DNA of 64,000 nucleotides, taken from Kribbella aluminosa (GTDB taxonomy: Bacteria; Actinomycetota; Actinomycetes; Propionibacteriales; Kribbellaceae). The stretch is taken from the NCBI RefSeq assembly GCF_017876295.1, contig NZ_JAGINT010000001.1, forward strand, positions 1,364,001 through 1,428,000. Direction: 5' to 3'. Made by a program: the position numbers and the translations under genes. The notes beneath the pieces are model-generated. The model worked only from the letters and a program-made list of their open reading frames with translations. It did not search any database and was not told the origin of the DNA. Shown in pieces: positions 25,586 through 41,458 of the stretch. Position 1 is the first letter of the stretch. Every line of letters starts with the position of its first letter.

Positions 25586-25606
25586 TGCAGGCACTTTAGG
25601 AAGAAA

Positions 25607-25620
25607 TGTCAACGTTGACA
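25607..25620. promoter_or_regulatory. LacI-type operator, copy 1
   Basis: The perfect 14-bp palindrome TGTCAACGTTGACA has the central CG of LacI/PurR-family operators. It lies 21 bases upstream of the GTG of the minus-strand propeller gene. The identical sequence recurs at 25627 and in front of the lacI gene at 35903. Confidence 0.8.
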
Positions 25621-25626
25621 AGGCTA

Positions 25627-25640
25627 TGTCAACGTTGACA
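25627..25640. promoter_or_regulatory. LacI-type operator, copy 2
   Basis: A second identical TGTCAACGTTGACA is placed exactly 20 bases after the first, so both lie on nearly the same face of the helix. The pair sits in the 107-base divergent promoter region and could repress both propeller genes and the downstream GH38-ABC-GH130 operon. Confidence 0.8.
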
Positions 25641-25692
25641 TCATCAAATCGCTTCGCACCTGTTGCTGTCACTCAGTGAGGGAGTACCAACC

Positions 25693-26991
25693 GTGCGTCA
25701 ACCCCGCATCCCCCTCGTCCTCGCGGCGCTGCTCGCCGCCACCGCCCTCTCCGTGCCGGCCGCGGCCGCCCCGGCCCTGCCCCCACCCGTCCAGCCCGGA
25801 CCCGCCCAGCCCGGACCCGCTCAGTCCGGACCCGCCCAGGCCGGACCCGCTGAGCCCGGACCCGCTCAGAGCAGGCAAGCCCGGCATCGCTCCTCGAACC
25901 TGGTGGTCGAGAGCGCGACCGAGCTCGGCCCGATCACCCAGAACCCGCACAACGCCGCCCGCGACAACGGCCAGAGCGTCCGGTACGGCAACCAGTCGGT
26001 GTGGTTCTTCGACGACACGATCCTGAAGAACCCGGACGGCTTCCTGACCAGTACCGCCGCGACCACCAGCGACCTCGACGCGAGCGACAACATCACGCTG
26101 ACCTCGGCGAACCCGCTCGACGAGCACTCCACCGGCGTACCGCCGGAGTTCGTGCCGTTCTCCGCCGCCGAGCTCGCGTTCCAGCAGCAGCACGCGTCGA
26201 CGGACTGCACGAACTCGACCGACGAGTACTGCGGGACCGTGTTCGCGCACTGGCCCGGTCCGGCCGTGGTCGACCAGGCGCGGCACCGGATCCTGGTGTC
26301 GTACGGCAAGCTCTGCCGTGGCGGCCGCGTCGGTACGCCGTGCGAGTCGGGCTTCGTCGGCCAGGCGCAGGGCACCGGCCTGGTCTCGGTCGACATGAAC
26401 AGCAGGACCATCACCCGGCTCGCCGCGACCAACCGCCCGGCCGACATCCCGAGCCCGGAGGGCGCCGACAACACGCTGTTCTTCCCGCCCGGGCAGGACT
26501 GGGGCGGTCAGGCGATGGTGCTGGCCGGCAACACGCTCTACGGCTACGGCAAGTGCACCCTGGACGGCTGCGCGGTCGCGAAGGTCCCGGTCGCGCAGGT
26601 CACCGACATCTCCCAGTGGCGCTTCTACATCGGTGCCGACGGCAACGGTAATCCGCAGTGGTCGACGGACCCGAGCAAGACGGTCCAGGTGAAGGCGAAC
26701 GGCGCCGCCGGCTCGACCGTGTACTGGGACAGCGCGTTCGGCGCCTACGTCAACACGTTCATGCAGTTCCAGTCCCAGGACGTCCAGTACCAGACGGCGC
26801 CCAACCCGTGGGGTCCGTGGAGTACGCCGACCAAGCTGTTCACAGCCGCGAAGACGAGCGGGATCGAGTACGCCGCGTTCGCGCACCCGGAGTACACCAG
26901 CGCGGACGGGCTGACGAAGTACTACACGTACTACACCTCGTCCACCGGCGCCCAGATGCTCGTCAAGGTCCGCTTCGCGAAGGGGTCGTGA
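25693..26991 (+). CDS. Secreted DUF4185-like beta-propeller protein, first gene of the mannoside operon
   Basis: From GTG at 25693, eight to nine bases after GAGGGAG, the product has 432 residues. A Sec signal peptide (RQPRIPLVLAALLAATALSV, cleavage near AAA) leads into a linker of about five PGPAQ/PGPAE repeats (residues 35-65). A single domain follows, with cysteine-containing loops (DCTNSTDEYCG, KLCRGGRVGTPCESG) and propeller strands such as VWFFDDTILKNPDGF and WGPWSTPTKLF. It resembles DUF4185 glycan-active proteins, though more weakly than the protein at 39.4 kb. It is the first gene of the run ending at 34643 and overlaps GH38 by one base (TGATG). Role inferred: extracellular attack on, or binding of, the polysaccharide. 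Confidence 0.65.
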   Translation: MRQPRIPLVLAALLAATALSVPAAAAPALPPPVQPGPAQPGPAQSGPAQAGPAEPGPAQSRQARHRSSNLVVESATELGPITQNPHNAARDNGQSVRYGNQSVWFFDDTILKNPDGFLTSTAATTSDLDASDNITLTSANPLDEHSTGVPPEFVPFSAAELAFQQQHASTDCTNSTDEYCGTVFAHWPGPAVVDQARHRILVSYGKLCRGGRVGTPCESGFVGQAQGTGLVSVDMNSRTITRLAATNRPADIPSPEGADNTLFFPPGQDWGGQAMVLAGNTLYGYGKCTLDGCAVAKVPVAQVTDISQWRFYIGADGNGNPQWSTDPSKTVQVKANGAAGSTVYWDSAFGAYVNTFMQFQSQDVQYQTAPNPWGPWSTPTKLFTAAKTSGIEYAAFAHPEYTSADGLTKYYTYYTSSTGAQMLVKVRFAKGS

Positions 26992-29900
26992 TGCATCAGC
27001 ATCCACAACGCACGATCGACCGGGCCCGCCGGATGCTCGACGAGCGGGTTCAGCCCGCCGTCGAGCGCCGTGCGGCGGCGCTGACCGTCTCGGTACGGCG
27101 CCTGCCCGGCGAACCCGAGCCGTTCGAGCTGGCGACCGCCGGACCGTTCGAGCCGTTCACCGCCGGATCCACCTGGGGTCCGGCGTGGACGACCGCATGG
27201 TTCCACCTGCAGGGCGACGTACCGGCCGGCTGGGACGCCTTGGTGCCGACAACCTACTCGGTCCACAGCGCCGCGGTAGTGGTCGACCTCGGCTTCGACG
27301 GCGGCCCGGGCTTCCAGTCCGAAGGCCTCGTGTACCGCGCGGACGGCAGCATCGTGAAGGGCGTGCACCCGCGCAGCCGGTACGTCCGGCTCGACCCTGG
27401 CACGACGACCGTCGACCTGTACGTCGAGGCCGCCGCGAACCCGGACATCGCCGCGCGGGCGTTCCGGCCGACCGTGCTCGGTGACGGGCTGGACGCCGAC
27501 GGCGAACCGCAGTACCGCTTCCGCCGGGCCGAGCTGGTCGCGCTCGACGACCGGGTCGACGCGCTCGCGGTCGATCTCGACGTACTGATCGGCTGGGCGG
27601 CCGAGCTGGCCGCCGACGACCCGCGCCGGTCGAAGATCCTGCGGGCGCTCGACCGCGCCTGCGACGTGATCGATCCGGACCGGATCCACGACTGCGTCGA
27701 CGCCGCGCGGGCCGAGCTCGCGACGGTGCTCGCGCAGCCGGCCGCGGCGAGTACGCACCGGGTCGCGGCGGTCGGGCACGCGCACATCGACTCGGCCTGG
27801 TTGTGGCCGATGCGGGAGACCGTGCGCAAGTGCACGCGGACGTTCGCGAACGTGCTGGCGCTGATGGACGACTACCCGGAGCTGCGGTTCGCCTGTTCGC
27901 AGGCGCAGCAGTACGCATGGATCGAGGAGCACCAGCCGAAGCTGTTCGCGCGGATCAGCGACGCGGTCGCGGCCGGCCGGTTCGTGCCGGCCGGCGGGAT
28001 GTGGGTCGAGTCCGACACCAACCTGCCGGGCGGCGAGGCGCTCGTCCGGCAGTTCGTGCACGGCAAGCGGTACTTCGCCGAGCGGTTCGGCGTCGAGCCG
28101 CGGGAGGTGTGGCTGCCGGACTCGTTCGGGTACTCCGCCGCGCTGCCGCAGATCGCCGTACTGGCCGGGTTCCGCTGGTTCCTGACCCAGAAGCTGGCGT
28201 GGCATCCGACGAACCCGTTCCCGCATCACACGTTCTGGTGGGAGGGGATCGACGGCACCCGGCTGTTCGCGCACCTGCCGCCGGTCGACACGTACCTGGC
28301 CGAGCTCACTCCGGCCGAGCTGAACCACGCGACGCAGAACTTCCGCGATCACGCCGGTGCGACGACATCGTTGGTCCCGTTCGGGCACGGCGACGGCGGC
28401 GGTGGACCGACTGCGCTGATGATGGAACGGGCTCGCCGGCAGGCCGACCTGGAGGGTGCGCCGCCGATCGAGCACCTGACGCCGACGGCGTTCTTCGAGC
28501 GTGCCGAGGCGGAGTACCCGGACGCGCCGGTGTGGGTCGGCGAGCTCTACATGGAGGCCCACCGCGGTACGTACACGTCGCAGGCTGCGATGAAGCGCGG
28601 CAACCGGCGCAGTGAGCACCTGCTGCGTGAGGCCGAGCTGTGGTGTGCGACGGCGACGATCCGGACCGGGGCGGAGTACCCGTACGACGCCCTGGACCGG
28701 ATCTGGAAGACCGTGCTGCTGCACCAGTTCCACGACGTACTGCCCGGCTCCTCGATCGCCTGGGTGCACCGGGAGGCGCGGGAGGCGTACGAACAGGTCG
28801 GGGCCGAGCTCGAGGAACTGATCACGACCGCGCTTGGGACGCTTGCCGGTGAAGGCGACATCCCGATCCGGTTCAACGCCGTACCGCTGCGGGTCGCCGG
28901 CATCCCGGCGCTGGGCGCCTCGGACGCACCGGAAGCGGCCGGCCAGGCGGTGACCGCGCGGCTGGACGGTAATCGGTGGATTGTCGACAACGGCGTACTG
29001 CGGATCACGATCGCCGCGGACGGGACGATCACGTCGCTCGTCGACACCCGGTACGACCGTGAACTGGTCGCCGAGGGTGCCCGGCTGAATGACCTGGTCC
29101 TGCACCACGACCTGCCGAACGCCTTCGACGCCTGGGACCTGGACTCCTTCTACCGTACGACGGCCTCGCCGCTGCGGACGGTCGACTCGTTGCGCGTCGC
29201 CGAACGTCCCGACGCGGTGCTGGTCGAGGTACGACGTGTGCACGGTGCGTCGACGTACCACCAGACGATCACGATCCCGGCCGGCGTGGACCGGGTGGAG
29301 TTCGCGATCGACGTCGACTGGCACGAACGGGAGAAGTTGCTGAAGGCAATGTTCGGCGTGGACGTCCGGGCCGAGCACGCGACCGCGGAGATCCAGTTCG
29401 GGCACCTGCGGCGGCCGACGCACGACAACACCACCTGGGACGAGGCGAAGTTCGAGGTGTGCGCGCATCGCTGGGTGCACGTCGGCGAGCCCGGCTTCGG
29501 CGTAGCGGTCGCCAACGACTCGACGTACGGGCACGACATCCGGAGGCTGCCGGGGGAGTCCGGCGATCCGCTGGCGGGCCGTGCGGGCACCGGGATCGGG
29601 CTGTCGCTGCTGCGCGCGCCGCGCTACCCCGACCCGGAGACCGACCAGGGCCGGCACCACGCCCGCTACACGCTGGTGTCCGGCGCCGGAATCGACGACG
29701 CGGTCGAGGCCGGTCTGCGGCTGAACCTTCCGGTCCGGGAGATTCGCGGTACGTCGGCACCGGCGCCGCTCGTCGCGGTCGACGGCGACGGGGTGGTGAT
29801 CGAGACGGTCAAGCTGGCCGAGGACCGGTCGGGCGACGTGATCGTCCGTCTCTACGAGTCTCTCGGTGCGCGTACGACGGCGCGGCTGAGCTGGGACTTC

Positions 29901-30032
29901 GTTGCCGTGGGCGCCGAAATCGTCGACCTGCTCGAACGGCCCCTCGCGACCGTCGGCGAGCCCCGGTTCGAGCTCCGGCCGTTCCAGATCCTCACCGTAC
30001 GGATCCGGGTCCAGGAGGTGACTGATGACTAA
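26991..30032 (+). CDS. GH38-family alpha-mannosidase
   Basis: The product has 1013 residues. After an N-terminal lead domain, the catalytic (beta/alpha)7 domain starts at HRVAAVGHAHIDSAWLWPMR, with the zinc-binding H-x-D. EVWLPDSFGYSAALPQIAVL holds the nucleophile aspartate. HDVLPGSSIAWVHREAREAY is the helical-domain signature, and GH38 C-terminal beta domains complete the protein. It should hydrolyse alpha-mannosides with retention of configuration and needs Zn2+ (or Co2+ in some bacterial members). There is no signal peptide, so it acts on imported substrates. It is coupled to its neighbours: its ATG overlaps the previous stop, and its own last eight bases overlap the first permease gene. 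Confidence 0.93.
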   Translation: MHQHPQRTIDRARRMLDERVQPAVERRAAALTVSVRRLPGEPEPFELATAGPFEPFTAGSTWGPAWTTAWFHLQGDVPAGWDALVPTTYSVHSAAVVVDLGFDGGPGFQSEGLVYRADGSIVKGVHPRSRYVRLDPGTTTVDLYVEAAANPDIAARAFRPTVLGDGLDADGEPQYRFRRAELVALDDRVDALAVDLDVLIGWAAELAADDPRRSKILRALDRACDVIDPDRIHDCVDAARAELATVLAQPAAASTHRVAAVGHAHIDSAWLWPMRETVRKCTRTFANVLALMDDYPELRFACSQAQQYAWIEEHQPKLFARISDAVAAGRFVPAGGMWVESDTNLPGGEALVRQFVHGKRYFAERFGVEPREVWLPDSFGYSAALPQIAVLAGFRWFLTQKLAWHPTNPFPHHTFWWEGIDGTRLFAHLPPVDTYLAELTPAELNHATQNFRDHAGATTSLVPFGHGDGGGGPTALMMERARRQADLEGAPPIEHLTPTAFFERAEAEYPDAPVWVGELYMEAHRGTYTSQAAMKRGNRRSEHLLREAELWCATATIRTGAEYPYDALDRIWKTVLLHQFHDVLPGSSIAWVHREAREAYEQVGAELEELITTALGTLAGEGDIPIRFNAVPLRVAGIPALGASDAPEAAGQAVTARLDGNRWIVDNGVLRITIAADGTITSLVDTRYDRELVAEGARLNDLVLHHDLPNAFDAWDLDSFYRTTASPLRTVDSLRVAERPDAVLVEVRRVHGASTYHQTITIPAGVDRVEFAIDVDWHEREKLLKAMFGVDVRAEHATAEIQFGHLRRPTHDNTTWDEAKFEVCAHRWVHVGEPGFGVAVANDSTYGHDIRRLPGESGDPLAGRAGTGIGLSLLRAPRYPDPETDQGRHHARYTLVSGAGIDDAVEAGLRLNLPVREIRGTSAPAPLVAVDGDGVVIETVKLAEDRSGDVIVRLYESLGARTTARLSWDFVAVGAEIVDLLERPLATVGEPRFELRPFQILTVRIRVQEVTDD

Positions 30033-30921
30033 ACGACACCGGGACACGATCCTCGGGTACCTGTTCGTCTCGCCCGCGATCATCGGGTTGCTGCTGTTCG
30101 TGGCGTACCCGATGGTGACGTCGCTCTACCACTCGTTCACCCAGTGGAACGGGCTGACCCCGGCCAAGTGGGTCGGGCTGGACAACTACAAGTTCCTGTT
30201 CACCAGCGATCCGACGTTCTGGCCGTCGTTGAAGGTGACCGTGCTGTGGGTGGTTATCTCGGTACCGGCCACGTTGGCCGCCGGGCTCGCGCTCGCGGTC
30301 GTGGTGAACCGGACGATCAAGGGCGTCAAGGTGTTCCGGACGATCTTCTACCTGCCGGTGGTGCTGCCCGCGGTCGCCGTACTGACGTTGTGGAAGTACA
30401 TCTACGACCCGACGTACGGGCTGGCCAACCAGGTGCTGACGTTCCTGCACCTGCCGACCAGTCTGTGGCTGGGCGACGCGCACGTGGCGCTGCCGGCCAT
30501 CCTGATCGTCGGGGTGTGGAGCGTCGGCGGCACGATGATGATCTTCCTGGCCGGCCTGCAGGCGGTGCCGGAGGAGATCCAGGAGGCGGCCAAGGTCGAC
30601 GGCGCGAACGCGTTCCGGCGGTTCACCCGGATCACGCTGCCGATGATCGGGCCGATCATGATGCTCCAGCTGATGCTGGCGCTGAACGGCGCGTTCCAGA
30701 CCTTCAACCAGGTCGCGATCCTGACCAAGGGCGGACCCGGGCACTCGACCAACCTGTTGATGTACAAGATCTACAACGACGGGTTCGCCGACTTCATCAC
30801 CTCACCGCAGCTCGGGTACGCGACCGCCGAGGTGTGGGTGCTGTTCGTGATCGTGATGCTGGTGACCGTCGTGATGCTCCGGCTCACCCGCAGCCGCGTC
30901 TATCAAGGAGAAGGCGCATGA
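30025..30921 (+). CDS. Sugar ABC transporter permease (MalF/UgpA type)
   Basis: The product has 298 residues and six membrane helices. GYLFVSPAIIGLLLFVAYPM is the first helix of CUT1-family permeases. EAAKVDGANAFRRFTRITLP is the EAA loop that contacts the ATPase. NQVAILTKGGPGHSTNLLMY is a conserved late loop. It forms the membrane channel with the next gene's product for an oligosaccharide importer. The ATG lies inside the end of the GH38 gene, and its stop overlaps the second permease start by four bases. No ATPase gene is present in the operon, so a shared MsiK-like ATPase encoded elsewhere is expected. Confidence 0.92.
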   Translation: MTKRHRDTILGYLFVSPAIIGLLLFVAYPMVTSLYHSFTQWNGLTPAKWVGLDNYKFLFTSDPTFWPSLKVTVLWVVISVPATLAAGLALAVVVNRTIKGVKVFRTIFYLPVVLPAVAVLTLWKYIYDPTYGLANQVLTFLHLPTSLWLGDAHVALPAILIVGVWSVGGTMMIFLAGLQAVPEEIQEAAKVDGANAFRRFTRITLPMIGPIMMLQLMLALNGAFQTFNQVAILTKGGPGHSTNLLMYKIYNDGFADFITSPQLGYATAEVWVLFVIVMLVTVVMLRLTRSRVYQGEGA

Positions 30922-31799
30922 CCGCCGAAGCTCTTGTCCTGGCGCGCCCGGCGGCGCTTACGCAGCGGGTGCCGTTCATGGTGTCGCGCGTTGCCTGGTA
31001 CGCGTTGTGCGGGCTGCTCGCGGTCTCGATGCTGCTGCCGCTGGTGTGGATGATCAGCATCGCGCTGAAGGGCAACGGCGACATCAACCAGCTGCCGCCG
31101 ACGTTCCTGCCGCGGGAGTTCCGGGCCGCGAACTTCGTCGACGGCCCGGCGCAGATCGGGTTCTACCGGTTGCTGCTGAACACCGTGATCGTCACCGTAC
31201 TGTCCACGATCGGCGCGGTGGCCAGCTCGATGATCGTCGGGTACGGCATCTCCCGGATCGACTTCCCGGGCCGCCGGTTCTGGTTCGCGCTGATCTCCGG
31301 CAGCATCTTCGTCCCGGGCATCGTCGGGCTGATCCCGCTGCAGCACCTGTACATCAGCCTCGGGCTGATCGACACCTGGGTGCCGCTGATCCTGCCGGCC
31401 TTCTTCGGCAGCCCGATCTTCGTGTTCCTGGCCAGGCAGTACTACCAGTCGATCCCGAAGTACCTGGACGAGTCGGCCACGATCGACGGCGCCGGGCACT
31501 GGATGATCTTCACCCGGATCATGATCCCACTCACCAAGCCGGTCTGGATCACGATCGCGATCATGTCCTTCCAGTTCGCCTGGAACGACTACCTGAGTCC
31601 GTTGGTCTACCTGCAGGACGCGAAGAAGTTCACGCTGCCGCTCGGGATGGCCGCGTTCCTCTCCGACCAGGCCGGCTCTCAGTACAACTACTACATGGCG
31701 ACGAACCTGCTGTTCGTCGTACCGCCGCTGGTGCTGTTCTTCCTCGCCCAGCGCTACTTCATGGAGGGCCTCGGCGCCCTCGGAACCATCGCGAAATGA
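30918..31799 (+). CDS. Sugar ABC transporter permease (MalG/UgpE type)
   Basis: The product has 293 residues starting at ATG 30918, with six helices. ESATIDGAGHWMIFTRIMIP is the EAA motif, and LLAVSMLLPLVWMISIALKG is the first helix with the usual outside loop. It pairs with the preceding permease in a CUT1 carbohydrate importer. The start overlaps the upstream stop (ATGA); the binding-protein gene follows after 11 bases. The C terminus AQRYFMEGLGALGTIAK matches the MalG-family ending (Q-R-x-F-x-x-G-x-x-x-G). Confidence 0.92.
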   Translation: MTAEALVLARPAALTQRVPFMVSRVAWYALCGLLAVSMLLPLVWMISIALKGNGDINQLPPTFLPREFRAANFVDGPAQIGFYRLLLNTVIVTVLSTIGAVASSMIVGYGISRIDFPGRRFWFALISGSIFVPGIVGLIPLQHLYISLGLIDTWVPLILPAFFGSPIFVFLARQYYQSIPKYLDESATIDGAGHWMIFTRIMIPLTKPVWITIAIMSFQFAWNDYLSPLVYLQDAKKFTLPLGMAAFLSDQAGSQYNYYMATNLLFVVPPLVLFFLAQRYFMEGLGALGTIAK

Positions 31800-31810
31800 G
31801 GAGATCGATC

Positions 31811-33094
31811 ATGCCCACACTCAGGGCGACAGCAGTACTCGTCGTCGCCGGGCTGGCCCTCGCCGGGTGCGGCGGCGGTTCCGGCGCCGCGAAGGGCGGC
31901 GGGTCCGTCAGCTACATGACCTGGGAATCCGTTCCCACCAACCAGGCCCTGGACAAGAGCATGGCCAAGCTGCAGGGCGTCACCGTGCAGCGCGAGGAGT
32001 CGCCGAACGCGGACTACGCGCAGAAGCTCGCCTCGCTGATCATGTCCAAGAAGGCGCCGGACTTCTTCTGGTGCTCGAACTCGCAGGAACAGAACCTGGC
32101 CGCGGAAGGCCTGCTGTACGACTGGTCGTCGTACCTGAAGAAGGGCGACGGACTGCAGGAGGACAAGTTCTCGCCCGGCTCGCTCGATTTGTGGCGGAAC
32201 CCCGAGGGCAAGCTGTACGGGATCCCGACGCTCGCGAACACGTACGGGTTCTTCTACAACAAGGCCGACTTCGACAAGGCCAAGCTGAAGGCCCCGGCGA
32301 TCGGCTGGACCTGGGACGAGCTGTACGCCGACATCGCCGCGCTGCGGCGTACCGACGCCAAGTCCACGCCGCTGGTGAACGCGTGGGCGTTGCTGGAGAG
32401 CCCGCAGGGCGTTTCGGCGTACTCGGTCGCGAACGGCGGCGCGCCGATCGTCGAGAAGCCGATCGGGTCCAAGCAGGTCCAGGCCGACGCGACGTTCCGG
32501 ACCGGGGCCGAGCGGATGGCGAAGGCGATCAAGGCCGGCGAGATGACCAACCCGGACTACGACGGCTCGAACGCGGTCGCGAAGTTCGCGAACGGCGGCA
32601 TCCCGCTGATGTTCGGCGGCCAGTGGCTGCACCAGTCGATCACCCAGAACAAGCCGAAGTTCGAGTGGGGCTACGCGCCCTGGCCGGCCGGTACGGCGAA
32701 GTCCGTGCAGCCGATCGAGACCAACGGCGTCTGCTCGCCGGCCACGCTGAAGGACCCGGGCAGCACCTGGAAGGTGATCAGCTACATGGAGGTCACCGGC
32801 TTCAACGAGACGATGAAGGACCAGCCGATCGCCCCGATCGCGTACGAGCCCGGCTCCAAGGGGTACTACGAGTCGCTGCAGGCCGGCGACGCCGCGGCGA
32901 AGACCATCGCCGCGACCGCGACGTACGAGCTCGGGGTGAAGGACAAGTTCGTGACGCAGTTCCTGGACCCGTGGTCGACACCGGCCGGTGATGTCGTCGG
33001 GACCACCTGGAACCCGGCGCTGTCCGGCAAGCAGGACGTGAACGCGGGCATCGACGGAATGGTTGCCGGGATCAACAAGCTGGCGGCCAAGTGA
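31811..33094 (+). CDS. Sugar ABC transporter substrate-binding lipoprotein
   Basis: The product has 427 residues. The N-terminal signal ends in the lipobox LALAGC, giving a lipid-anchored protein outside the membrane. It is followed by a GGGSGAAKGGG linker and a cluster-B (family 1) sugar-binding fold: VSYMTWESVPTNQALDKSM, GKLYGIPTLANTYGFFYNK and GGIPLMFGGQWLHQSI are its strands and hinge. It determines what the importer takes up; from the context this should be manno-oligosaccharides or mixed oligosaccharides. Its stop overlaps the GH130 GTG by four bases, so uptake and phosphorolysis are translationally coupled. Confidence 0.92.
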   Translation: MPTLRATAVLVVAGLALAGCGGGSGAAKGGGSVSYMTWESVPTNQALDKSMAKLQGVTVQREESPNADYAQKLASLIMSKKAPDFFWCSNSQEQNLAAEGLLYDWSSYLKKGDGLQEDKFSPGSLDLWRNPEGKLYGIPTLANTYGFFYNKADFDKAKLKAPAIGWTWDELYADIAALRRTDAKSTPLVNAWALLESPQGVSAYSVANGGAPIVEKPIGSKQVQADATFRTGAERMAKAIKAGEMTNPDYDGSNAVAKFANGGIPLMFGGQWLHQSITQNKPKFEWGYAPWPAGTAKSVQPIETNGVCSPATLKDPGSTWKVISYMEVTGFNETMKDQPIAPIAYEPGSKGYYESLQAGDAAAKTIAATATYELGVKDKFVTQFLDPWSTPAGDVVGTTWNPALSGKQDVNAGIDGMVAGINKLAAK

Positions 33095-34029
33095 GTACGC
33101 CGGCGGTCGACTACCCGTTCGGCCCGTTCGTGCCGCGGCCGGAGAACCCGGTCCTCCGGCCGGGGCGGCACGAGTGGGAATCGGCGAACGTGTACAACCC
33201 GGCGGCGCTGGTGGTGGACGGGCGGATCGCGCTCGTCTACCGGGCGCATGCGGACGACGTCGTGTCGCATCTCGGGCTCGCCTGGTCCGACGACGGGATC
33301 ACCTTCGAGACCGAGCCGGATCCGGTCATGGTGCCGACCGAGGACTACGAGCGGTACGGGTGCGAGGATCCGCGGGTCGTCTTCATTGGCGGCACCTACT
33401 ACCTGACCTACACCGGGTGGGACCGGCAGACGGCGCGGTTGTGCCTGGCGACGTCGACGGACCTGCGGCAGTGGGAGAAGCACGGGCCGATGTTCCCGGG
33501 GATCAACACGTTCGCGGGGATCCGCGAGACGCCGGGGCCGGACTGGAGCAAGGGCGGCGTGATCCTGCCCGAGCCGATCGACGGGCGGTACCTGATGTGG
33601 TTCGGCGAGGGGAACATCCACCTCGCCGAGTCGGACGACCTGCTGCACTGGAAGGCCGATCCGACGCCGGTGCTGCGTCCGGAACCGGGCACGTTCATGG
33701 GCGACCTGGTGGAGACGGGTCCGCAGCCGATCCGTACCCGGACCGGTCATGTGTTGCTGATGCACAACAGCGCGGTCAACCAGCCCGGCGGCGGGGTGTA
33801 CTACGCGTGCGGGCAGGTGCTGATCGATCCGCGGCGGCCGGACACCGTGGTCGCGAAGCTGACCGAGCCTTGGCTGGAGCCCAGTACCTACGAGGACCAG
33901 CACGGGTTGGTGAGCAACGTGACGTTCGTCGAGGGGCTGGTGTTCCATCGCGGGACCTGGTTCGCGTACTACGGCCAGAGCGACACCACGATCGGCGTCG
34001 CCACGTTCACCCCTCCGGAGGAGTCGTGA
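33091..34029 (+). CDS. GH130-family mannoside phosphorylase or beta-mannosidase
   Basis: The product has 312 residues from GTG at 33091. The five-bladed propeller of GH130 is recognised from WESANVYNPAALVVDGRIAL, the family signature YGCEDPRVVFIGGTYYLTYT (with the catalytic aspartate) and WSKGGVILPEPIDGRYLMWF. GH130 enzymes phosphorolyse beta-1,4-mannosides, including Man-GlcNAc of N-glycan cores, or hydrolyse beta-1,2-mannosides. The subfamily cannot be settled by eye. A phosphorylase would yield mannose 1-phosphate without ATP cost. It is cytoplasmic, with no signal peptide, and is coupled to the binding-protein and SGNH genes by GTGA overlaps. Confidence 0.88.
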   Translation: MSTPAVDYPFGPFVPRPENPVLRPGRHEWESANVYNPAALVVDGRIALVYRAHADDVVSHLGLAWSDDGITFETEPDPVMVPTEDYERYGCEDPRVVFIGGTYYLTYTGWDRQTARLCLATSTDLRQWEKHGPMFPGINTFAGIRETPGPDWSKGGVILPEPIDGRYLMWFGEGNIHLAESDDLLHWKADPTPVLRPEPGTFMGDLVETGPQPIRTRTGHVLLMHNSAVNQPGGGVYYACGQVLIDPRRPDTVVAKLTEPWLEPSTYEDQHGLVSNVTFVEGLVFHRGTWFAYYGQSDTTIGVATFTPPEES

Positions 34030-34643
34030 TCGTGCTGGCGGACGGAGCCCGGGTGATGTTCACGGGTGACTCGATCACCGACTGCCATCGGCGGGAGACC
34101 GACAATCCGCTCGGGTACGGGTACCCGCTGCTGGTGGCGGGGCTTTGGGGCCGCCGGCAACCGGATCGGGTACCGGTCTGGACGAACACCGGGATCTCCG
34201 GCGACACACTCGCCGGGCTGGGCGGCCGGTGGCAGTCCGACGTACTCGATGCACGGCCGGACGTGGTGTCGATCCTGATCGGGATCAACGACTGCGGGTA
34301 CCGGTTCTCGTTCGGGCACGACGAGGTGCCGGCGGAGGTGTTCCGCGCCGGGTACCGGCGGTTGCTGGAGCCGCTGGCCGACGTACAACTGGTGCTGATC
34401 GAGCCGTTCCTCCTGCCGGTGAAGGAGGAGCAGTGGGCGTGGCGGCCCGACCTGGACGCCAAGATCCAGGTGGTGCGGGAGCTGGCCCGCGAGTACGACG
34501 CCCACCTGGTCGCCGCCGACGCCATGTTCACAGAACTTGCCGCACGCAACAAGAACCCGGACCACTGGCTCTCCGACGGCGTCCACCCCACCCCCGCCGG
34601 CCACCAAGCCTTGGCCGAAGCCTGGCTGAACCAACTCACCTAA
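34026..34643 (+). CDS. SGNH/GDSL-family hydrolase (probable esterase/deacetylase)
   Basis: The product has 205 residues from GTG at 34026. Block I is MFTGDSITDCHRR (nucleophile serine), block III is IGINDCGYRF (oxyanion asparagine), and block V SDGVHPTPAGH supplies the aspartate and histidine. Many similar small cytoplasmic SGNH proteins sit in glycoside operons and remove acetyl or other acyl groups from imported oligosaccharides. It is the last gene of the operon, overlaps GH130 by four bases and is followed by a hairpin. The acyl substituent it removes is unknown; acylated lipoglycan fragments are one possibility. Confidence 0.85.
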   Translation: MIVLADGARVMFTGDSITDCHRRETDNPLGYGYPLLVAGLWGRRQPDRVPVWTNTGISGDTLAGLGGRWQSDVLDARPDVVSILIGINDCGYRFSFGHDEVPAEVFRAGYRRLLEPLADVQLVLIEPFLLPVKEEQWAWRPDLDAKIQVVRELAREYDAHLVAADAMFTELAARNKNPDHWLSDGVHPTPAGHQALAEAWLNQLT

Positions 34644-34773
34644 CCCACCCCACTCCACCGCCCGCTGCCCACCTGCCGCCCGCGCGTCGGACGCCCACGC
34701 CGGCGAAACCCCTCGACCACCTGACACCGTCCGGCCAACGCCCACACCTACGCCAGGACAGCCTCATTTCGGG

Positions 34774-34843
34774 GGTTAACCAATGCGGTTGTCCCTTTGC
34801 TGCTGGTATGCAGGAGGCGAAGGGACAATCAGCGGGGTTAACC
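34774..34843. terminator. Bidirectional hairpin between the mannoside operon and lacI
   Basis: GGTTAACC arms frame a TTGTCCCTTTGC/GCGAAGGGACAA stem with a loop of about 16 bases (one bulge). It lies between the convergent ends of the operon and the lacI gene. The sequence from 34644 to 34773 is C-rich and shows nothing coding. Confidence 0.7.
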
Positions 34844-34880
34844 GTCTGGACGTCGGCCGCCCAGCGGGGCGGTGGAGGTT

Positions 34881-35889
34881 CTAGTACGTCGGGTTGGCGT
34901 TGACGATCAGGCGGGCGGGGACCTCGAGGCGTTGGGGGGTGCGGGTTGGGTCGGCCAGGCGGTCGAAGAGGAGTTGGGCGCCGGCGCGGCCGACGTCGTA
35001 CGGGTCGCTGTCGATGACCGAGACGCCGAACGCCGCGGCCAGTTCGAACCGGTCGAAGCAGACCGTGTCGATCCGGCGGCTCGCGAACGCCTGCGACTGC
35101 AGCAGCCCGGTGCAGAGCCGGTTGTTGTCGACGAACACGGCGTCCGGGGGCCGCCGACGGCAGCAGGTCGTCGGCGGCGCGGCGGGCGTCGTCCTCGCTG
35201 ACCAGGTTGTTCCGGACGAGGGCGGGATCCACCGCGATACCGGCGGCGCCGAGCGCGGCGACGTACCCGGCCCAGCGTTCCTCGGCACCGCTGCCGCTGC
35301 GCGGGTGCCCGAGGTACGCGATCCGCCGGCGGCCCTTCGCGAGCAGGTGCTCGATCCCCGCGCGGGTGCTGGCCGCGTTCGTGGTGGTGACCGAGTCCAT
35401 CGACTCACCGAGGCCCGGGGGAGGTGAGTCCACGAACACGATCGCCGAACCGAACCGCGCCTCGTTCGCCAGGTATCCGAGGTCGTTCCCGACCGGCGCG
35501 ATGATCAGCCCCGCGACCCGGTGCGCGAAGAACGACCGGATCGCCCGGTGCTCGAGCTCCGGATCGTTCTGCGCGTCGGCGGTCAGCACCAGGTACCCGC
35601 GCTCGGAGGCGACCGAGTGGATGCCTCGCAGCATCGGCGCGAAGAACGGGTTCGTACAGTCGCCGAGCGTGACCCCGATCGACGTCATCGCCTGATTCTT
35701 CCGCCGCAACCCCGCAGCGACGTCGTTCAGCTGCACCCCCAGCCGATCCGCCTCGGCCACGATCCGCTGCCGCGTCGACTCCCGCACCTTCGGATCCCCA
35801 CGCAGCGCCCGCGACACCGTCTTGATGCTGACACCGGTAGTCGCCGCCACATCCTCGAGCCGCGGCCGCCGCGGAACTTCACTCTCCAT
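34881..35889 (-). CDS. LacI-family transcriptional regulator of the mannoside/propeller regulon, apparent +1 frameshift
   Basis: The N-terminal HTH (RLEDVAATTGVSIKTVSRAL, hinge LNDVAAGLRRKNQ) is complete. The sugar-binding core runs in one frame to AADDLLPSAA and continues in another as PDAVFVDNNRLCTGLLQSQA to the end NANPTY. Removing one base from the five-G run at 35146-35150 restores a single frame of about 335 codons. As both halves are well conserved, this is more likely a sequencing error than a pseudogene. The identical palindrome TGTCAACGTTGACA stands 14 bases upstream of its ATG and twice in the divergent propeller promoter at 25.6 kb. It probably represses itself and both propeller transcripts, with an oligosaccharide as inducer. 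Confidence 0.88.
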
Positions 35890-36211: not shown

Positions 36212-37210
36212 CTACTTCTTCGGGGCGGAGGTGGCTCGGATGTGGAGTTCGGTGCGGAGGGTGACGGTGGAGGGTGGGCGGCCGGGGGCGGTGGTGCGGT
36301 CCTTGAGGAGCATGCCGGCGGTGCGGCCCAGCTCGTACGTGGGCTGGGCGACGGTGGTGAGGCTGGGGATGACCAGGTCTGCCCACGGGATGTCGTCGAA
36401 GCCGACGATCGCGATGTCGTCCGGGGCGCGGAGGCCCTTGCGGGCCAGGCATTCGAGGGCGCCGACGGTCATCAGGTTGTTGGTGGCGAAGAGTGCCTCG
36501 GGCGGATCGGGCAGCTCCAGCAGGCTTTCCATCGCGGCGTACCCACCGGCCTCGCGGAAGTCGGCGTGCCGCACGAGGTCCTTGTCGTACCGGATCCCGC
36601 CCGCCCGCAGCGCCGACCGGTACCCGGCCAGCCGGTCCATCGCGGTCGACACCTTCCGCGGCCCGGTGATGCAGGCGATCCGCCGATACCCTCCGTCGAT
36701 CAGGTGTTTGACACCTTCGAACGCGCCGTGCTCGTTGTCCACCAGCACCGTGTCCGCCTCGACGCCCTCGACCCGCCGGTCGATCATCACCAGCGGGATC
36801 TTCGCGTCCGCGAGCAGCTGCACGCCCTCCGCGGTCGACGTCGGCGAGATCACCACCCCGGCCATCTGGTCGGTCAGCACCGCCGACGCGTACGCCGCTT
36901 CCTTCGCCGGGTCCTCGTCGGAGTTGCACAGGACGACGTGGTATCCCTCGGTCTGTGCGACGTCCTCGAGCCCGCGGACCAGCGAGGTGAAGAACGGGTT
37001 CTCGATGTCCGAGATGACGACCGCCCACAGGTTCGTCGAGGACTTCCGCAGGTTCCGCGCGACGCCGTTCGGGCGGTACCCGAGCTCGGCGACCGCGGCG
37101 CGGACCTTCTCGGACAGTTCGGGGTCGACGTTGCGCCGGCCGCTCAGCACCCGCGACACCGTGGCCGGCGACACCCCCGACCTACGCGCGACGTCGTAGA
37201 TCGTCGTCAT
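36212..37210 (-). CDS. LacI-family transcriptional regulator (second)
   Basis: The product has 332 residues starting MTTIYDVARRSGVSPATVSR; the ATG at 37210 puts the HTH at the very N terminus as usual, so I reject the longer frame. The hinge is GVARNLRKSSTNLWAVVISD. The periplasmic-binding-like core follows, with FATNNLMTVGALECLARKGL and IVGFDDIPWADLVIPSLTTV. It lies downstream of, and on the same strand as, the SIS and kinase genes, separated by a large hairpin. It may control the palindromes GAAATCGATTTC and GAAATCGATTGC at 38976 and 39129. The effector is probably the sugar handled by those two enzymes. Confidence 0.9.
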   Translation of the reverse strand: MTTIYDVARRSGVSPATVSRVLSGRRNVDPELSEKVRAAVAELGYRPNGVARNLRKSSTNLWAVVISDIENPFFTSLVRGLEDVAQTEGYHVVLCNSDEDPAKEAAYASAVLTDQMAGVVISPTSTAEGVQLLADAKIPLVMIDRRVEGVEADTVLVDNEHGAFEGVKHLIDGGYRRIACITGPRKVSTAMDRLAGYRSALRAGGIRYDKDLVRHADFREAGGYAAMESLLELPDPPEALFATNNLMTVGALECLARKGLRAPDDIAIVGFDDIPWADLVIPSLTTVAQPTYELGRTAGMLLKDRTTAPGRPPSTVTLRTELHIRATSAPKK

Positions 37211-37281
37211 ACCCGCTCCCCGCTGGAGATCCGATGGTCGTCTGGATCGCACTCTAACCCCGATCCCGCCCACAGGATCTT

Positions 37282-37358
37282 AGAGGGTGTCTTGGAGCTC
37301 TGCGCCTACTGCGCGGCACTCGGCGGGCACCTCGGCGCACAGCTCCAAGACACCCTCT
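37282..37358. terminator. Large intergenic hairpin between the kinase gene and the second lacI
   Basis: AGAGGGTGTCTTGGAGCT (37282-37299) pairs perfectly with its complement at 37341-37358. With one mismatch the stem extends seven more pairs inwards. The loop contains ACTGCGCGGCACTCGGCGGG and ends CACCTCG. The right arm touches the stop codon of the kinase gene. Similar loop cores occur in hairpins near 52.0 and 61.6 kb. It probably ends or attenuates the SIS-kinase transcript. Confidence 0.7.
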
Positions 37359-38296
37359 CATGACTGTGAGGCACCGGTCCGGAGGAGGGCGAGGGCGGTG
37401 GCGCGAGTGGGGGCCGAGGCGGCGGCGCCGTTGACGGTGGTGGAGAGGGCGCCGGCGGCGTTGGCGAGGCGGACGGCGTCGACGAGGTCGGCTCCGTCGG
37501 CGAGGGAGGCGGCGAGTGAGCCGCAGAAGGCGTCGCCGGCACCGACGGTGTCGATGGTGTCGACGGTGTACGGCGCGATCCGCTCCTCGAAGCTCCCCGC
37601 GCGGTCGAGCACGTACGCGCCGCGCGCGCCGAGCGTGACGACGCATCCGCGCAGGTCCCAGTCCTCGGCGAGTTTGCGCGCGATCATCGGCACCTGGGAC
37701 TCGTCGTCGCAGTCCAGCCCGGTGAGCGCCGCGGCCTCCACCTCGTTCGGCACCAGGATGTCGACGTACGCCGCCAGCGCCGGATCGATCGGTCCGACCG
37801 GGGCCGGGGTGAGGATCGTGGTCACGCCCGCGGTCGAGGCGAGCCGGAGGGCGGCGTGGCTCGCCTCGACCGGGAGTTCGAGCTGCACGCTGAGCACCTT
37901 GCTCCCGGTCAGGACGTCGCGGGCGGCATCGACCTCGACGGCGGTGATCGCAGCGTTCGCCCGGGACACGATGATGATCGAGTTCCCGCCGTCGGGCAGC
38001 ACCAGCGGCAGTCCGACGCCGGTGCCGAGCGACGGGTGCCGGACGACCCAGGACGTGTCGACCCCGTTCGAACGGAGCAGTTCGAGGAACTCCTCGCCGT
38101 ACCGGTCCTCGCCGATCGTGCCGACGATCGCGGTCCGGGCGCCCATCCGGGCCGCCGCGATCGCCTGGTTCACGCCCTTCCCACCGAGGAACTCCGCGAA
38201 CCCGGTGCCGTGCAGCGTCTCGCCCGGCAACGGCCGCCGCTCCGCGGACGCGACCAGGTCCTTCATGAACGACCCGAGCACACACACGTCGTTCAT
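37358..38296 (-). CDS. PfkB/ribokinase-family sugar kinase
   Basis: The product has 312 residues, starting MNDVCVLGSFMKDLVASAER. FLGGKGVNQAIAAARMGART is PfkB signature 1, and DTIDTVGAGDAFCGSLAASL is signature 2 with the catalytic aspartate and anion hole. The pattern of the first 50 residues is that of ribokinase rather than fructokinase. It should phosphorylate a pentose or hexose at the terminal hydroxyl. It overlaps the SIS-domain gene by four bases (ATGA), so the two work as a pair. If that partner is an arabinose-5-phosphate isomerase, D-arabinose is the simplest substrate, but that is an inference. Confidence 0.88.
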   Translation of the reverse strand: MNDVCVLGSFMKDLVASAERRPLPGETLHGTGFAEFLGGKGVNQAIAAARMGARTAIVGTIGEDRYGEEFLELLRSNGVDTSWVVRHPSLGTGVGLPLVLPDGGNSIIIVSRANAAITAVEVDAARDVLTGSKVLSVQLELPVEASHAALRLASTAGVTTILTPAPVGPIDPALAAYVDILVPNEVEAAALTGLDCDDESQVPMIARKLAEDWDLRGCVVTLGARGAYVLDRAGSFEERIAPYTVDTIDTVGAGDAFCGSLAASLADGADLVDAVRLANAAGALSTTVNGAAASAPTRATALALLRTGASQS

Positions 38297-38955
38297 GCCT
38301 CGTCCTCCGACAGACGTTTGCCCAGGGCACCTGATGGATGGAACTGCGCGAAGTCCTGGTGACTGAACTCCCGCAGTACGACGAGGGCGCACGCCAGCGC
38401 GTCGCCCATCGCGAGCGTCGCGGTCGTGGACGCGGTCGGCGCCAGGTTCAGCGGGTCGGCCTCGCGCAGCACCATGGTGTCCAGCGTGTACGTCGCCAGC
38501 TGGGCGAGTGTCGACTCCTCGCGCCCGGTCATCGCGATCACCGGGATCTGCCGCTCGCGCAGCATCCGGGCGAACGCGCACACCTCGGCGGTCTCGCCGG
38601 ACGCGGACAGCGCCAGTACGAGATCGCGGGAGGTGACCGCCCCGGAGTCGCCGTGCAGGGCGTCGCCGGCGTGGATGAACGTGGCCGGCGTGCCGGTACT
38701 GGCCAGGGTCGCGGCGATCTTCCGCCCGACCAGACCCGACTTGCCCAGGCCGGTCACCACCAGGTGACCCTCGCACCGGGCGACTGCGGTCAGCACCTCC
38801 AGGAAGACGCCGTCCAGCCGGTCGGCCAGTGCCGACACGGCTGCTGCCTCGGTCTCGATCGCGTCCCGCGCCGCTTGCAGCCCCCGTGCCACCAGGTCCC
38901 TGGACAGCTCGTCGGCCGTGCGGTGGGCGGACGCACGGTTCGGCACAACTGGCAT
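38293..38955 (-). CDS. SIS-domain sugar-phosphate isomerase, KdsD/KpsF/GutQ (arabinose-5-phosphate isomerase) type without CBS domains
   Basis: The product has 220 residues. VTGLGKSGLVGRKIAATLAS, STGTPATFIHAGDALHGDSG, LNLAPTASTTATLAMGDALA and FHPSGALGKRL follow the KdsD/GutQ pattern almost motif by motif, including the conserved histidines. The usual C-terminal CBS pair is absent. These enzymes interconvert D-ribulose 5-phosphate and D-arabinose 5-phosphate, normally for Kdo of lipopolysaccharide, which actinobacteria lack, so a catabolic role is likely here. A 6-phospho-3-hexuloisomerase is a weaker alternative. It is the first gene of a two-gene operon with the kinase. A palindromic operator ends its 5' region 21 bases upstream. 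Confidence 0.8.
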   Translation of the reverse strand: MPVVPNRASAHRTADELSRDLVARGLQAARDAIETEAAAVSALADRLDGVFLEVLTAVARCEGHLVVTGLGKSGLVGRKIAATLASTGTPATFIHAGDALHGDSGAVTSRDLVLALSASGETAEVCAFARMLRERQIPVIAMTGREESTLAQLATYTLDTMVLREADPLNLAPTASTTATLAMGDALACALVVLREFSHQDFAQFHPSGALGKRLSEDEA

Positions 38956-38975: not shown

Positions 38976-38987
38976 GAAATCGATTTC
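38976..38987. promoter_or_regulatory. Candidate LacI-type operator upstream of the SIS-kinase operon
   Basis: The perfect palindrome GAAATCGATTTC has the central CG expected for LacI-family sites and lies 21 bases upstream of the SIS-domain ATG. It differs from the TGTCAACGTTGACA sites, so a different regulator, probably the second LacI, is implied. Confidence 0.6.
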
Positions 38988-39120: not shown

Positions 39121-39416
39121 GATTGCGAGAAATCGATTGCCCTTCGAGCCGACTGCCACCGCCCGGCTCGACGGTTCCGAGCTACCTCTGGAGCACGTGA
39201 TGGCTGCAACACCGTCCCCTGCCCGGAGATCGAGGGACCGGGGCCGATCAACCACATCTGGTGCACCGTCGCGCGGGACAGCCCATGGGGTCCTGACGAG
39301 GCCGACGGGGACTATCTGCGGAAGCGCATCCTCTCCGCATCGCCTGGGTGGACGCGTCGCAGCCGGGCGTCCTGGTGCCGCTCGGCGACTTCTTCGGTGT
39401 CGGTACCAAACCTTGA
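39121..39416 (+). pseudogene. Remnant of a DUF2961 (GH172) glycoside hydrolase N terminus
   Basis: In one frame the sequence reads ARDGCNTVPCPEIEGPGPIN, continuing HIWCTVARDSPWGPDEADGD and YLRKRIL. After a frame change near 39328-39336 it reads RIAWVDASQPGVLVPLGDFF followed by GVGTKP and a stop at 39414. The order DGCN, EIEGPGxIxHIW, LRK, VPLGDFFG is the N-terminal signature of DUF2961 proteins, which form CAZy GH172 (D-arabinofuranosidases and related fructofuranoside enzymes). Full-length members have about 350-400 residues; only about 90 remain and no start codon is evident. It sits directly upstream of a DUF4185 gene, so the intact ancestor probably paired an exo- with an endo-acting enzyme. 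Confidence 0.7.
39129..39140. promoter_or_regulatory. Second copy of the GAAATCGATT operator, beside the GH172 relic
   Basis: GAAATCGATTGC matches the site at 38976 in 11 of 12 positions. The two sites bracket the region between the SIS-kinase operon and the rightward GH172 relic and propeller gene, as expected of a shared divergent control region. Confidence 0.55.
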
Positions 39417-39427
39417 AGGGATAGTTC

Positions 39428-41458
39428 ATGAAGCGTGGGGCCTTGCTTGCTGTCCTGCCGCTGGTCTTCGGAACGGCGACACTGCTCACCCAACCGTCCA
39501 TCCCGAAGACTCCGCCAACCACCCCGATCGGCACCGTCCAGGTCGAGTCGAAGGGTACGCCGAGCAAGAGCGACGGCGACCTCTGGCCGTCCTGCTGGGC
39601 CGGCAACGACAAGCTGTACGCCGCGAACGGCGACGGCAAGGGCTTCAGCACCGACGGCGCCTTCGCCGACGTCGCGGTCAGCGAGATCACCGGTACGCCG
39701 GGAAACTTGTCCGGGGCAACGACCTCGAAGGGCGACCAGGTCGGGCAGATCTGGAGCGGAGCCGGGTACAACCGGAAGCCGACCGGGATGGTCTGCGTCG
39801 GGGACACGTTGTACCTCGCCGTCCAGGACCTCGCGCTGGACTTCAACGACGTACCAGCGGCGACGATCCTGAAGTCGACCGACCACGGCCGCACCTGGAC
39901 GTGGGACAAGTCCAAGCCGATGTTCTCGGGCCATGTGTTCACGACGATCTGGTTCGCGGACTTCGGTCGCGGTGGGGCCTCGGCTCCCGACGGTTACGTC
40001 TACGCCTACGGGTTGGACGGGAACTGGCGGGACTCGTTCGACGACACGGTCGCGGATCCACAGTCGGTGTTCCTGGCCCGGGTGCCTAAAGCCGATGTGC
40101 AGAACCGGAGCGCGTGGAAGTTCTACACCGGGTCCGGATGGTCGCCGAAGCTCGCGGACCGCAAGCCGGTGCTGACCGACACGCGACGGCTCTACGCGCA
40201 GACGTACGGGACGAACGCGTCGAACCTGAGCGTGATCAGCCAGGGCGGCGTCACGTACCTCCCGGCGCAGAAGCGATATGTCTACACGTCGTGGACCGAG
40301 TACACCTTCGAGTTCTACGAGTCGCCGACACCGTGGGGACCGTGGAAGCACTTCCTGTCCAAGGACTTCGGGGGTTATCCGTGGTCGACGTCGAAGTACG
40401 GCGGGTACGGCGTGACGATCCCGTCGAAGTTCGTGCAACCGGACGGCAAGACGATGTACATCCAGGCGAACGTGTGCCCGTGCGGTGGCGGCGGGATCGG
40501 TACGTCTGTGTACAACTTCAACCTGCGCAAACTGGTGCTCACGCCTGCTTCGAACGCGCCCGCCGCCAACCTGCCGGGCGCTGACAACCTCGCCGCGCCT
40601 GCCACTGGTGCGGTTGCGATTTCCAAGTCGACGCAGTCGGGCAGTCTCGCGTTGCTGAACGACGGCTTGAAGACTGGCAGCGAGTCCGACTTCGACGACG
40701 AGGTGAAGGGTGCCTCGTGGTGGGGGTACGAGTGGCCGGCGCGGCACAAGGTCAACAACGTTGAGTTCACGTCCGGCGCGGTGTCCGCCGAGGGCGGGTA
40801 CTTCACTGGTCGTCCCCGGGTGCAGGTTCGTCGCGACGGGCAGTGGGTCGAGGTCGGGTCGCAGACGGTGTCCCCGGCGTACCCGGGTGATGCGTCGGCG
40901 GGTGCGAACACGACGTACACGATCACGGTCCCGACGCAGGAGACGGACGGGGTCCGGGTGATCGGGCTGCCTGGTGGGACGCGTTCGTACACGACCGTGT
41001 CGGAGCTGGCGGTGCGGTACGTGTCGCAGTTGGCGGATGGCGGCTTCGAGGGCACCGGTGGTGGTAAGCCTGCCTGGCTCTTCGAAGGTACTGCGGCCAA
41101 CGGGGTGGACCGTGGACTCGGCTTCGCGCACTCGGGGGCTAACAACGGGTGGATCCGCTGTACGTGTACGGGGTTCAGCGATCTGTATCAGAGCGTGCCG
41201 GTGGTGCCCGGGGCGACGTACACCTTCGGCTCCTGGATCAACGCCTCAGCCAACCTCCCCGCTGATGTGGGCCGCTTCGGCGTCCGCAACGGAGGGACAG
41301 TCCTCGCCAGCACCACCTTCGGCGCCGGCACGGGCTACGTCCACCACGAGGTCACAGTGCAGGTCCCACCAAACGTCCACGAACTAACGGTCTACGCCGG
41401 CTTCAACGCCCCCAACAAGGACACCTGGATCCAGCTGGACGACTTCACCGTCAGTTGA
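39428..41458 (+). CDS. Secreted DUF4185 (GH183-like) beta-propeller protein with two C-terminal carbohydrate-binding modules
   Basis: The product has 676 residues; GAAGGGA lies seven bases before the ATG. A Sec signal peptide (MKRGALLAVLPLVFGTATLL) precedes the DUF4185 domain (about 35-375). That domain shows DLWPSCWAGNDKLYAANGDG, GYNRKPTGMVCVGDTLYLAV, STDHGRTWTWDKSKPMF and TSWTEYTFEFYESPTPWGPW. An F5/8-like beta sandwich (about 390-530) and a CenC-like module (ADGGFEGTG ... WIQLDDFTVS) follow. DUF4185 founded CAZy GH183, whose known members are endo-D-arabinanases. The GH172 relic just upstream and the A5P-isomerase operon across the divergent promoter support a D-arabinan substrate. Which acidic residues are catalytic I cannot assign. 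Confidence 0.78.
   Translation: MKRGALLAVLPLVFGTATLLTQPSIPKTPPTTPIGTVQVESKGTPSKSDGDLWPSCWAGNDKLYAANGDGKGFSTDGAFADVAVSEITGTPGNLSGATTSKGDQVGQIWSGAGYNRKPTGMVCVGDTLYLAVQDLALDFNDVPAATILKSTDHGRTWTWDKSKPMFSGHVFTTIWFADFGRGGASAPDGYVYAYGLDGNWRDSFDDTVADPQSVFLARVPKADVQNRSAWKFYTGSGWSPKLADRKPVLTDTRRLYAQTYGTNASNLSVISQGGVTYLPAQKRYVYTSWTEYTFEFYESPTPWGPWKHFLSKDFGGYPWSTSKYGGYGVTIPSKFVQPDGKTMYIQANVCPCGGGGIGTSVYNFNLRKLVLTPASNAPAANLPGADNLAAPATGAVAISKSTQSGSLALLNDGLKTGSESDFDDEVKGASWWGYEWPARHKVNNVEFTSGAVSAEGGYFTGRPRVQVRRDGQWVEVGSQTVSPAYPGDASAGANTTYTITVPTQETDGVRVIGLPGGTRSYTTVSELAVRYVSQLADGGFEGTGGGKPAWLFEGTAANGVDRGLGFAHSGANNGWIRCTCTGFSDLYQSVPVVPGATYTFGSWINASANLPADVGRFGVRNGGTVLASTTFGAGTGYVHHEVTVQVPPNVHELTVYAGFNAPNKDTWIQLDDFTVS

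Follow-up and report, generated by a model that had tools for sequence, protein, structure and literature searches.

In the actinobacterium Kribbella aluminosa, an SIS isomerase gene and the ribokinase-like kinase gene that overlaps it very likely form the intracellular end of a LacI-controlled D-arabinan regulon, in which D-arabinose would be converted to D-arabinose 5-phosphate (A5P) and further to D-ribulose 5-phosphate (Ru5P). It is also likely that actinobacteria which consume the D-arabinan of mycobacterial-type cell walls, of which D-arabinose is a rare sugar, possess a dedicated kinase-first D-arabinose pathway, and that this pathway brings together a D-arabinose 5-kinase with a glycine in its lid, a catabolic CBS-less KdsD and one scattered LacI regulon. 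The single parts of such a pathway are known; their combination and the order of the two steps are new relative to the accessible parts of the open-access literature that was searched.

In the proposed pathway, GH183, GH172 and GH116 enzymes would cut D-arabinan, and ABC importers would take up the fragments, from which, as judged by homology, D-arabinose would be released within the cell. The ribokinase-like enzyme would phosphorylate D-arabinose at O5, and the CBS-less KdsD-type isomerase would convert the resulting A5P to Ru5P, which would enter the pentose phosphate pathway. The scattered genes would be jointly controlled, presumably in response to an effector, by a LacI repressor that binds the operator-like sequence GAAATCGATTTC and is most likely the product of the gene adjoining that of the kinase. 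As members of GH183, GH172 and GH116 have been published as D-arabinan enzymes, the sugar metabolized is most likely D-arabinose.

Organization of the locus

The window, i.e., the whole stretch of 64,000 nucleotides that was analyzed, is part of a genome of 8.94 Mb in two contigs. The gene pair and its surroundings comprise the following features:

36212-37210, minus strand: LacI-family regulator gene, candidate repressor, adjoining the kinase gene
37280-37360: inverted repeat between the LacI and kinase genes, terminator-like by reading of the sequence
37358-38296, minus strand: PfkB/ribokinase-like kinase gene, 312 aa, putative D-arabinose 5-kinase
38293-38955, minus strand: SIS isomerase gene, 220 aa, CBS-less KdsD/KpsF/GutQ type, putative A5P isomerase
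38976-38987: operator-like palindrome GAAATCGATTTC, 20 nt upstream of the isomerase start codon
39129-39140: second operator-like site GAAATCGATTGC, one mismatch to GAAATCGATTTC
about 39160-39404, plus strand: GH172 (DUF2961) relic, first third only, split over two frames
39428-41458, plus strand: weak DUF4185 gene, 676 aa, with a start that looks like that of a secreted protein

Both genes of the pair are located on the minus strand and are real open reading frames that overlap as ATGA, in line with the translational coupling proposed in the earlier note, whose start of the kinase gene was corrected to position 38296. The GH172 relic and the DUF4185 gene are oriented divergently from the pair. 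The relic, already recognized as such before, aligns with the initial third of intact GH172 at 37-67% identity, and intact GH172 copies are present in two other Kribbella loci (L086 and L096). The neighboring gene is real as well, but its product turned out to be a distant DUF4185 member (61.4 bits at a cut-off of 39.5), for which no PDB sequence match was obtained at E 0.1 and which is predicted to be secreted.

The locus adjoins an alpha-mannoside-type cluster (window 23666-34643) with genes for GH38, two permeases, an SBP, GH130 and a GDSL esterase, by which two more weak DUF4185 matches occur at 24596-24955 (42 bits) and 26485-26916 (52 bits). Because LAM contains both mannan and arabinan, a link between the mannoside cluster and the D-arabinan locus is conceivable. 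A second LacI-type gene (window 34636-35889) looks frameshifted, with its C-terminal half in another frame (34881-35408).

A shared operator connects scattered genes of the host genome

Exact copies of GAAATCGATTTC occur seven times in the 8.94-Mb genome, at an expected count of about 0.04 according to an order-3 Markov model built on 335 kb of the host genome, a set that itself contains the sites. The reversed pattern had zero occurrences in the host genome, even when one mismatch was allowed. All seven exact sites lie in front of genes that fit the proposed regulon, i.e., the isomerase-kinase pair, three GH183, one GH172, one GH116 and an importer together with GH116, at a distance of about 20-85 nt from the chosen start codons. 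Apart from the pair, the genes behind the sites are:

L033: GH183, then SBP and two permeases
L034: GH116 of 1203 aa that looks secreted
L035: GH183
L036: SBP, two permeases and GH116
L037: GH183
L038: multidomain GH172

The three GH183 are the strong DUF4185 genes of the genome (275, 305 and 420 bits), and each of them carries an exact site. The five GH172 genes of the host include one with an exact and one with a one-mismatch site, and no site was found within flanks of about 1.5 kb of the other three; the same was observed for the four weak DUF4185 genes besides that at 39428. Sites with one mismatch to GAAATCGATTTC numbered eight in the host genome. Three fit the regulon, namely GAAATCGATTGC in the window and the sites at a GH172 and a GH116 gene, whereas five do not, two of them being intragenic and three preceding genes for a GH43-like protein, another glycosidase-like protein and an ABC ATPase. 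GH183, GH172, GH116 and an ABC importer, the set that marks a D-arabinan system when placed in one locus or under one control, are thus united in Kribbella by the shared operator, although scattered over the genome. The LacI protein encoded beside the kinase probably controls the genes behind GAAATCGATTTC. The GH172 and GH116 families also include fructofuranosidases and beta-glucosidases.

Relation to described D-arabinan systems

In the accessible text of two studies, members of GH183, GH172 and GH116 are described as D-arabinan enzymes, with GH183 as a D-arabinanase family (PMC10509167; PMC10115798). The earlier note knew of no pathway of the proposed form in actinobacteria, which has to be qualified in view of a D-arabinan locus of Microbacterium arabinogalactanolyticum published in 2023. 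As in Kribbella, this locus encodes GH183, GH172, GH116 and an ABC importer, and additionally a 'putative isomerase and kinase', the kind of which is not stated in the available text (PMC10509167). The Microbacterium genes form one locus, whereas those of Kribbella are scattered and linked by the operator. For Dysgonomonas gadei, an isomerase-first use of D-arabinose has been suggested, with a predicted fucose isomerase being abundant on D-arabinan (PMC10115798, as far as accessible), so that the proposed order of steps for the same sugar is reversed in Kribbella. A search of the host genome for a FucI-type isomerase (PF02952) gave no match, while the E. coli control was positive. No catabolic A5P route was found in the accessible parts of the open-access literature searched.

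The isomerase resembles A5P isomerases

The isomerase contains an SIS domain (Pfam SIS, 95.4 bits) and marginally exceeds the cut-off of the kpsF model TIGR00393 (204.3 versus 203.7 bits) by its SIS half only. The previously claimed match to KdsD/KpsF/GutQ accordingly applies to the SIS domain but not to the whole length, as the CBS pair is absent: no CBS match was obtained for the 220-aa protein in the profile search. Readings as a 6-phospho-3-hexuloisomerase (HxlB; TIGR03127, 46.2 bits at a cut-off of 160) or as a sedoheptulose 7-phosphate isomerase, for which the model score was far below the cut-off, were rejected.

By sequence, the solved proteins closest to the isomerase are the SIS domain of KdsD (2xhz, E 9e-43) and c3406 (5uqi, E 5e-40), and the same two structures ranked at the top of a fold search with the model of the isomerase (mean pLDDT 87.8), at 46% identity for 2xhz (E 4e-18) and 37% for 5uqi (E 2e-17). 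The latter structure is that of c3406 with A5P, and c3406 is CBS-less like the Kribbella isomerase, while KdsD possesses the CBS pair. The SIS fold and the active-site positions are common to the isomerase, E. coli KdsD/GutQ/KpsF and c3406. Residues K72, H101, E124, E165 and H206 are invariant in 11 homologues and occupy the positions of KdsD Lys59, His88, Glu111, Glu152 and His193, which we take to be the active-site residues; H206 is located past the end of the 2xhz match and was placed by the offset and by 5uqi. What sets the Kribbella isomerase apart from KdsD and c3406 is its placement beside a kinase within a regulon of D-arabinan type, and it presumably works in the catabolic direction.

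The earlier note had pointed out that actinobacteria do not produce Kdo-containing lipopolysaccharide and had suggested that a normally biosynthetic enzyme operates in reverse. The Kdo argument is weak: A5P isomerases are reversible, with a Ru5P/A5P equilibrium of 0.48-0.5 (PMC11591822), KdsD has been used in vivo in the direction from A5P to Ru5P within a synthetic pathway (PMC9947464), and an A5P isomerase of the Gram-positive Clostridium tetani is in print. Going by the accessible portions of these sources, the reverse use is therefore less odd than claimed.

A glycine in the lid of the kinase

The kinase is a PfkB protein (202 bits) with the fold of ribokinase (best match 1rka, E 4e-29, 35% identity), and it scores 274.2 bits against the ribokinase model TIGR02152, below the cut-off of 299.65. 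Compared to E. coli RbsK (1rka, 1rkd), it has Gly for Ala98, Pro for Ile100 and Met for Asn14. The last substitution was dropped as a substrate signature, since human ribokinase has Met as well. Gly95 of the kinase aligns with the RbsK lid residue Ala98. The motif GTGVGLP is present in 54 of 55 kinase loci, some of which repeat a genome, and the 55th (G310) also has Gly at this place by alignment. In paralogues of the kinase from the same genome, the position is occupied by Ala in the three closest and by Thr in two more distant ones; the wild-type solved ribokinases shown (E. coli, Vibrio, Thermus and human) have Ala in four out of four cases, and the sole solved chain shown with Gly is 8cqx, titled 'mutant A92G'.

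According to the accessible text of Zayats et al. (2022), A98G was chosen to relieve the crowding of the arabinose 2-hydroxyl by Ala98, and the substitution in E. coli RbsK resulted in a 15-fold kcat and a 1.5-fold lower KM on D-arabinose, the KM of the engineered ribokinase still being 310 mM (PMC9604405). The Ala-to-Gly change picked by engineers thus seems to have also been made by nature in this kinase. Because the predicted structure of the kinase has low confidence in the lid region (pLDDT about 49-72), the assignment of the glycine relies on the sequence alignment.

Conservation within Kribbella

An isomerase match was obtained in 34 of the 38 genomes searched within the genus. The kinase, LacI and both operators accompany the isomerase in all 29 fetched Kribbella loci (L056-L084), the first site as GAAATCGATTTC and the second as G(C/T)AATCGATTTC throughout, and the ATGA overlap between isomerase and kinase is kept in 24 of the 29. 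The same arrangement was found in 20 out of 20 loci of named Kribbella (L085-L104), which partly overlap in genomes with the former set. Isomerases in named Kribbella records are up to 97% identical to that of the host. An importer is present at 15 of the 20 named loci and is gone from the window, where GH172 is a relic; a fuller layout is seen in L096, in which GH172, two permeases and an SBP face isomerase, kinase and LacI.

To survey exact sites across the genus, nine further single-contig Kribbella genomes were used, of which seven carry the isomerase and two lack it. Sites were compared with DUF4185 and DUF2961 matches, and the remaining ones were checked gene by gene. Thirty-nine of 41 sites precede the pair, GH183/weak DUF4185, GH172, GH116 or an importer, the importers being of two types; three of the 39 rest on weak DUF4185 matches, and without these the count is 36 of 41. 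Both misfit sites precede genes for Gfo/Idh/MocA oxidoreductases in the isomerase-less genomes G421 and G423. A DUF4185 gene scoring 267 bits or more is present in each of the seven isomerase-positive genomes (that of G410 without an exact site), and the two isomerase-negative genomes have one of 238-243 bits. The oxidoreductase sites of isomerase-less Kribbella lie at position 6843 in L121 and 6237 in L122; the palindrome in L121 is longer (GCGAAATCGATTTCGC) and perhaps belongs to another regulator.

Distribution beyond Kribbella

Within the sample of the class, the isomerase is rare: at E <= 1e-20, it occurs in 8 of 394 genomes, and in five of these, including the host, the identity exceeds 50%. 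The linkage to GH172 and GH183, for which the earlier note had suggested a neighborhood survey, was observed for both families in Kribbella (by the shared operator) and G360 (in one cluster) and for GH172 in Catellatospora, but not in the 15-19 kb read in G114, G310 and G364. In Catellatospora (loci L105 and L106), LacI, like operators, isomerase, kinase, SBP, two permeases and GH172 occur together, at identities of 61-63% for LacI and for the isomerase and 56% for the kinase. Beside the pair, Catellatospora encodes a 55% relative of the DUF4185 protein of the window, which in L105 gives no DUF4185 match itself. G360, a member of another family, harbors on one strand GH116, two permeases, SBP, GH183, GH172, kinase, isomerase, GH172, LacI and DUF4185, the last by a very weak match (33 bits, below the cut-off of 39.5), and the cluster has two GTAATCGATTAC sites.

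G114, G310 and G364 represent three of the four non-Kribbella genomes of the class with an isomerase above 50% identity, and no relative of GH183, GH172 or GH116 was found in the 15-19 kb read (19 kb for G114). Downstream of the G114 pair, on the same strand, come two other genes and then those for a ribose-type binding protein, an ATPase, a permease and LacI, the latter three assigned by eye. TGTAATCGATTACA is located upstream of the G114 pair. The three genomes (L108-L110) belong to one family, with sizes of 1.3-2.2 Mb and 46-50% GC, and may, as a guess, represent freshwater actinobacteria.

A GH116 match at E <= 1e-60 was obtained in 21 genomes of the class, and two of these, the host and G360, have the isomerase (E <= 1e-20). 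The isomerase is present in none of 14 fetched GH116 stretches, and three of them (L160, L170 and L171), from other actinobacterial families, contain GH172, GH116 and DUF4185-type genes without such an isomerase. As just 2 of 21 GH116 genomes possess the isomerase, the proposed pathway is not a general route but at most one of several solutions. SIS relatives of 34-37% identity in G266, G337 and G383 were set aside, as no such kinase adjoins them and their surroundings look by eye like systems for sugar-alcohol use. Clusters of this look around CBS-less SIS proteins of 34-37% identity (L112-L114) contain, as judged by eye, a xylulokinase type, dehydrogenases and ribose-type ABC genes. In a Deltaproteobacteria MAG (L107), no kinase was seen up to the end of the contig, about 1.1 kb past the isomerase match.

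Possible alternative functions of the gene pair

The best characterized relatives of the isomerase serve Kdo synthesis in Gram-negatives, its nearest relatives being KdsD and c3406, and ulosonic acids are a known feature of Kribbella walls. The isomerase might provide the A5P needed to make Kdo, or an acid resembling Kdo, for a wall polymer, with the kinase serving another purpose. This is very unlikely, however, as the isomerase shares its operator with D-arabinan-type hydrolases and importers and also clusters with them, the kinase adjoins it in every one of the 29 fetched Kribbella loci, and Kdo genes were not noticed within the stretches read.

It also appears unlikely that the pair acts on another sugar, as a ribo- or fructokinase with an SIS enzyme for a different sugar phosphate. 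SIS proteins are versatile, the kinase comes close to the ribokinase model, and GH172 has enzymes for fructofuranosyl bonds according to the accessible text of PMC8605356; yet the hexuloisomerase model was reached by far too few bits, the nearest folds are A5P isomerases, the kinase has Gly at the Ala98 place of RbsK, and the regulon includes GH183, in print as a D-arabinanase family. The arrangement in G114, with a ribose-type importer and LacI and no GH relative in 19 kb, would agree with a pair whose general role lies in the use of D-arabinose in its free form, or of a related pentose, and which was tied to D-arabinan genes by later recruitment in some lineages. Such a history is most improbable given the tie of the pair to glycan genes in Kribbella, Catellatospora and G360, and it would affect the range of the pathway while leaving both steps untouched. 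The route from D-arabinose via A5P to Ru5P, first guessed from the adjacency of the two genes, is favored by the shared operators, the clusters of Catellatospora and G360, the A98G-type residue of the kinase and the lack of a FucI-type match, with the enzyme activities being predicted.

The findings suggest a likely role for a KdsD-type gene that lacks the CBS part in Gram-positives and point to the kinase as a candidate for a natural D-arabinose 5-kinase, an enzyme wanted for the synthesis of arabinosides. The operator may serve as a marker to find further D-arabinan genes. For Kribbella itself, the regulon suggests an ability to use the walls of mycobacteria-like neighbors as food.
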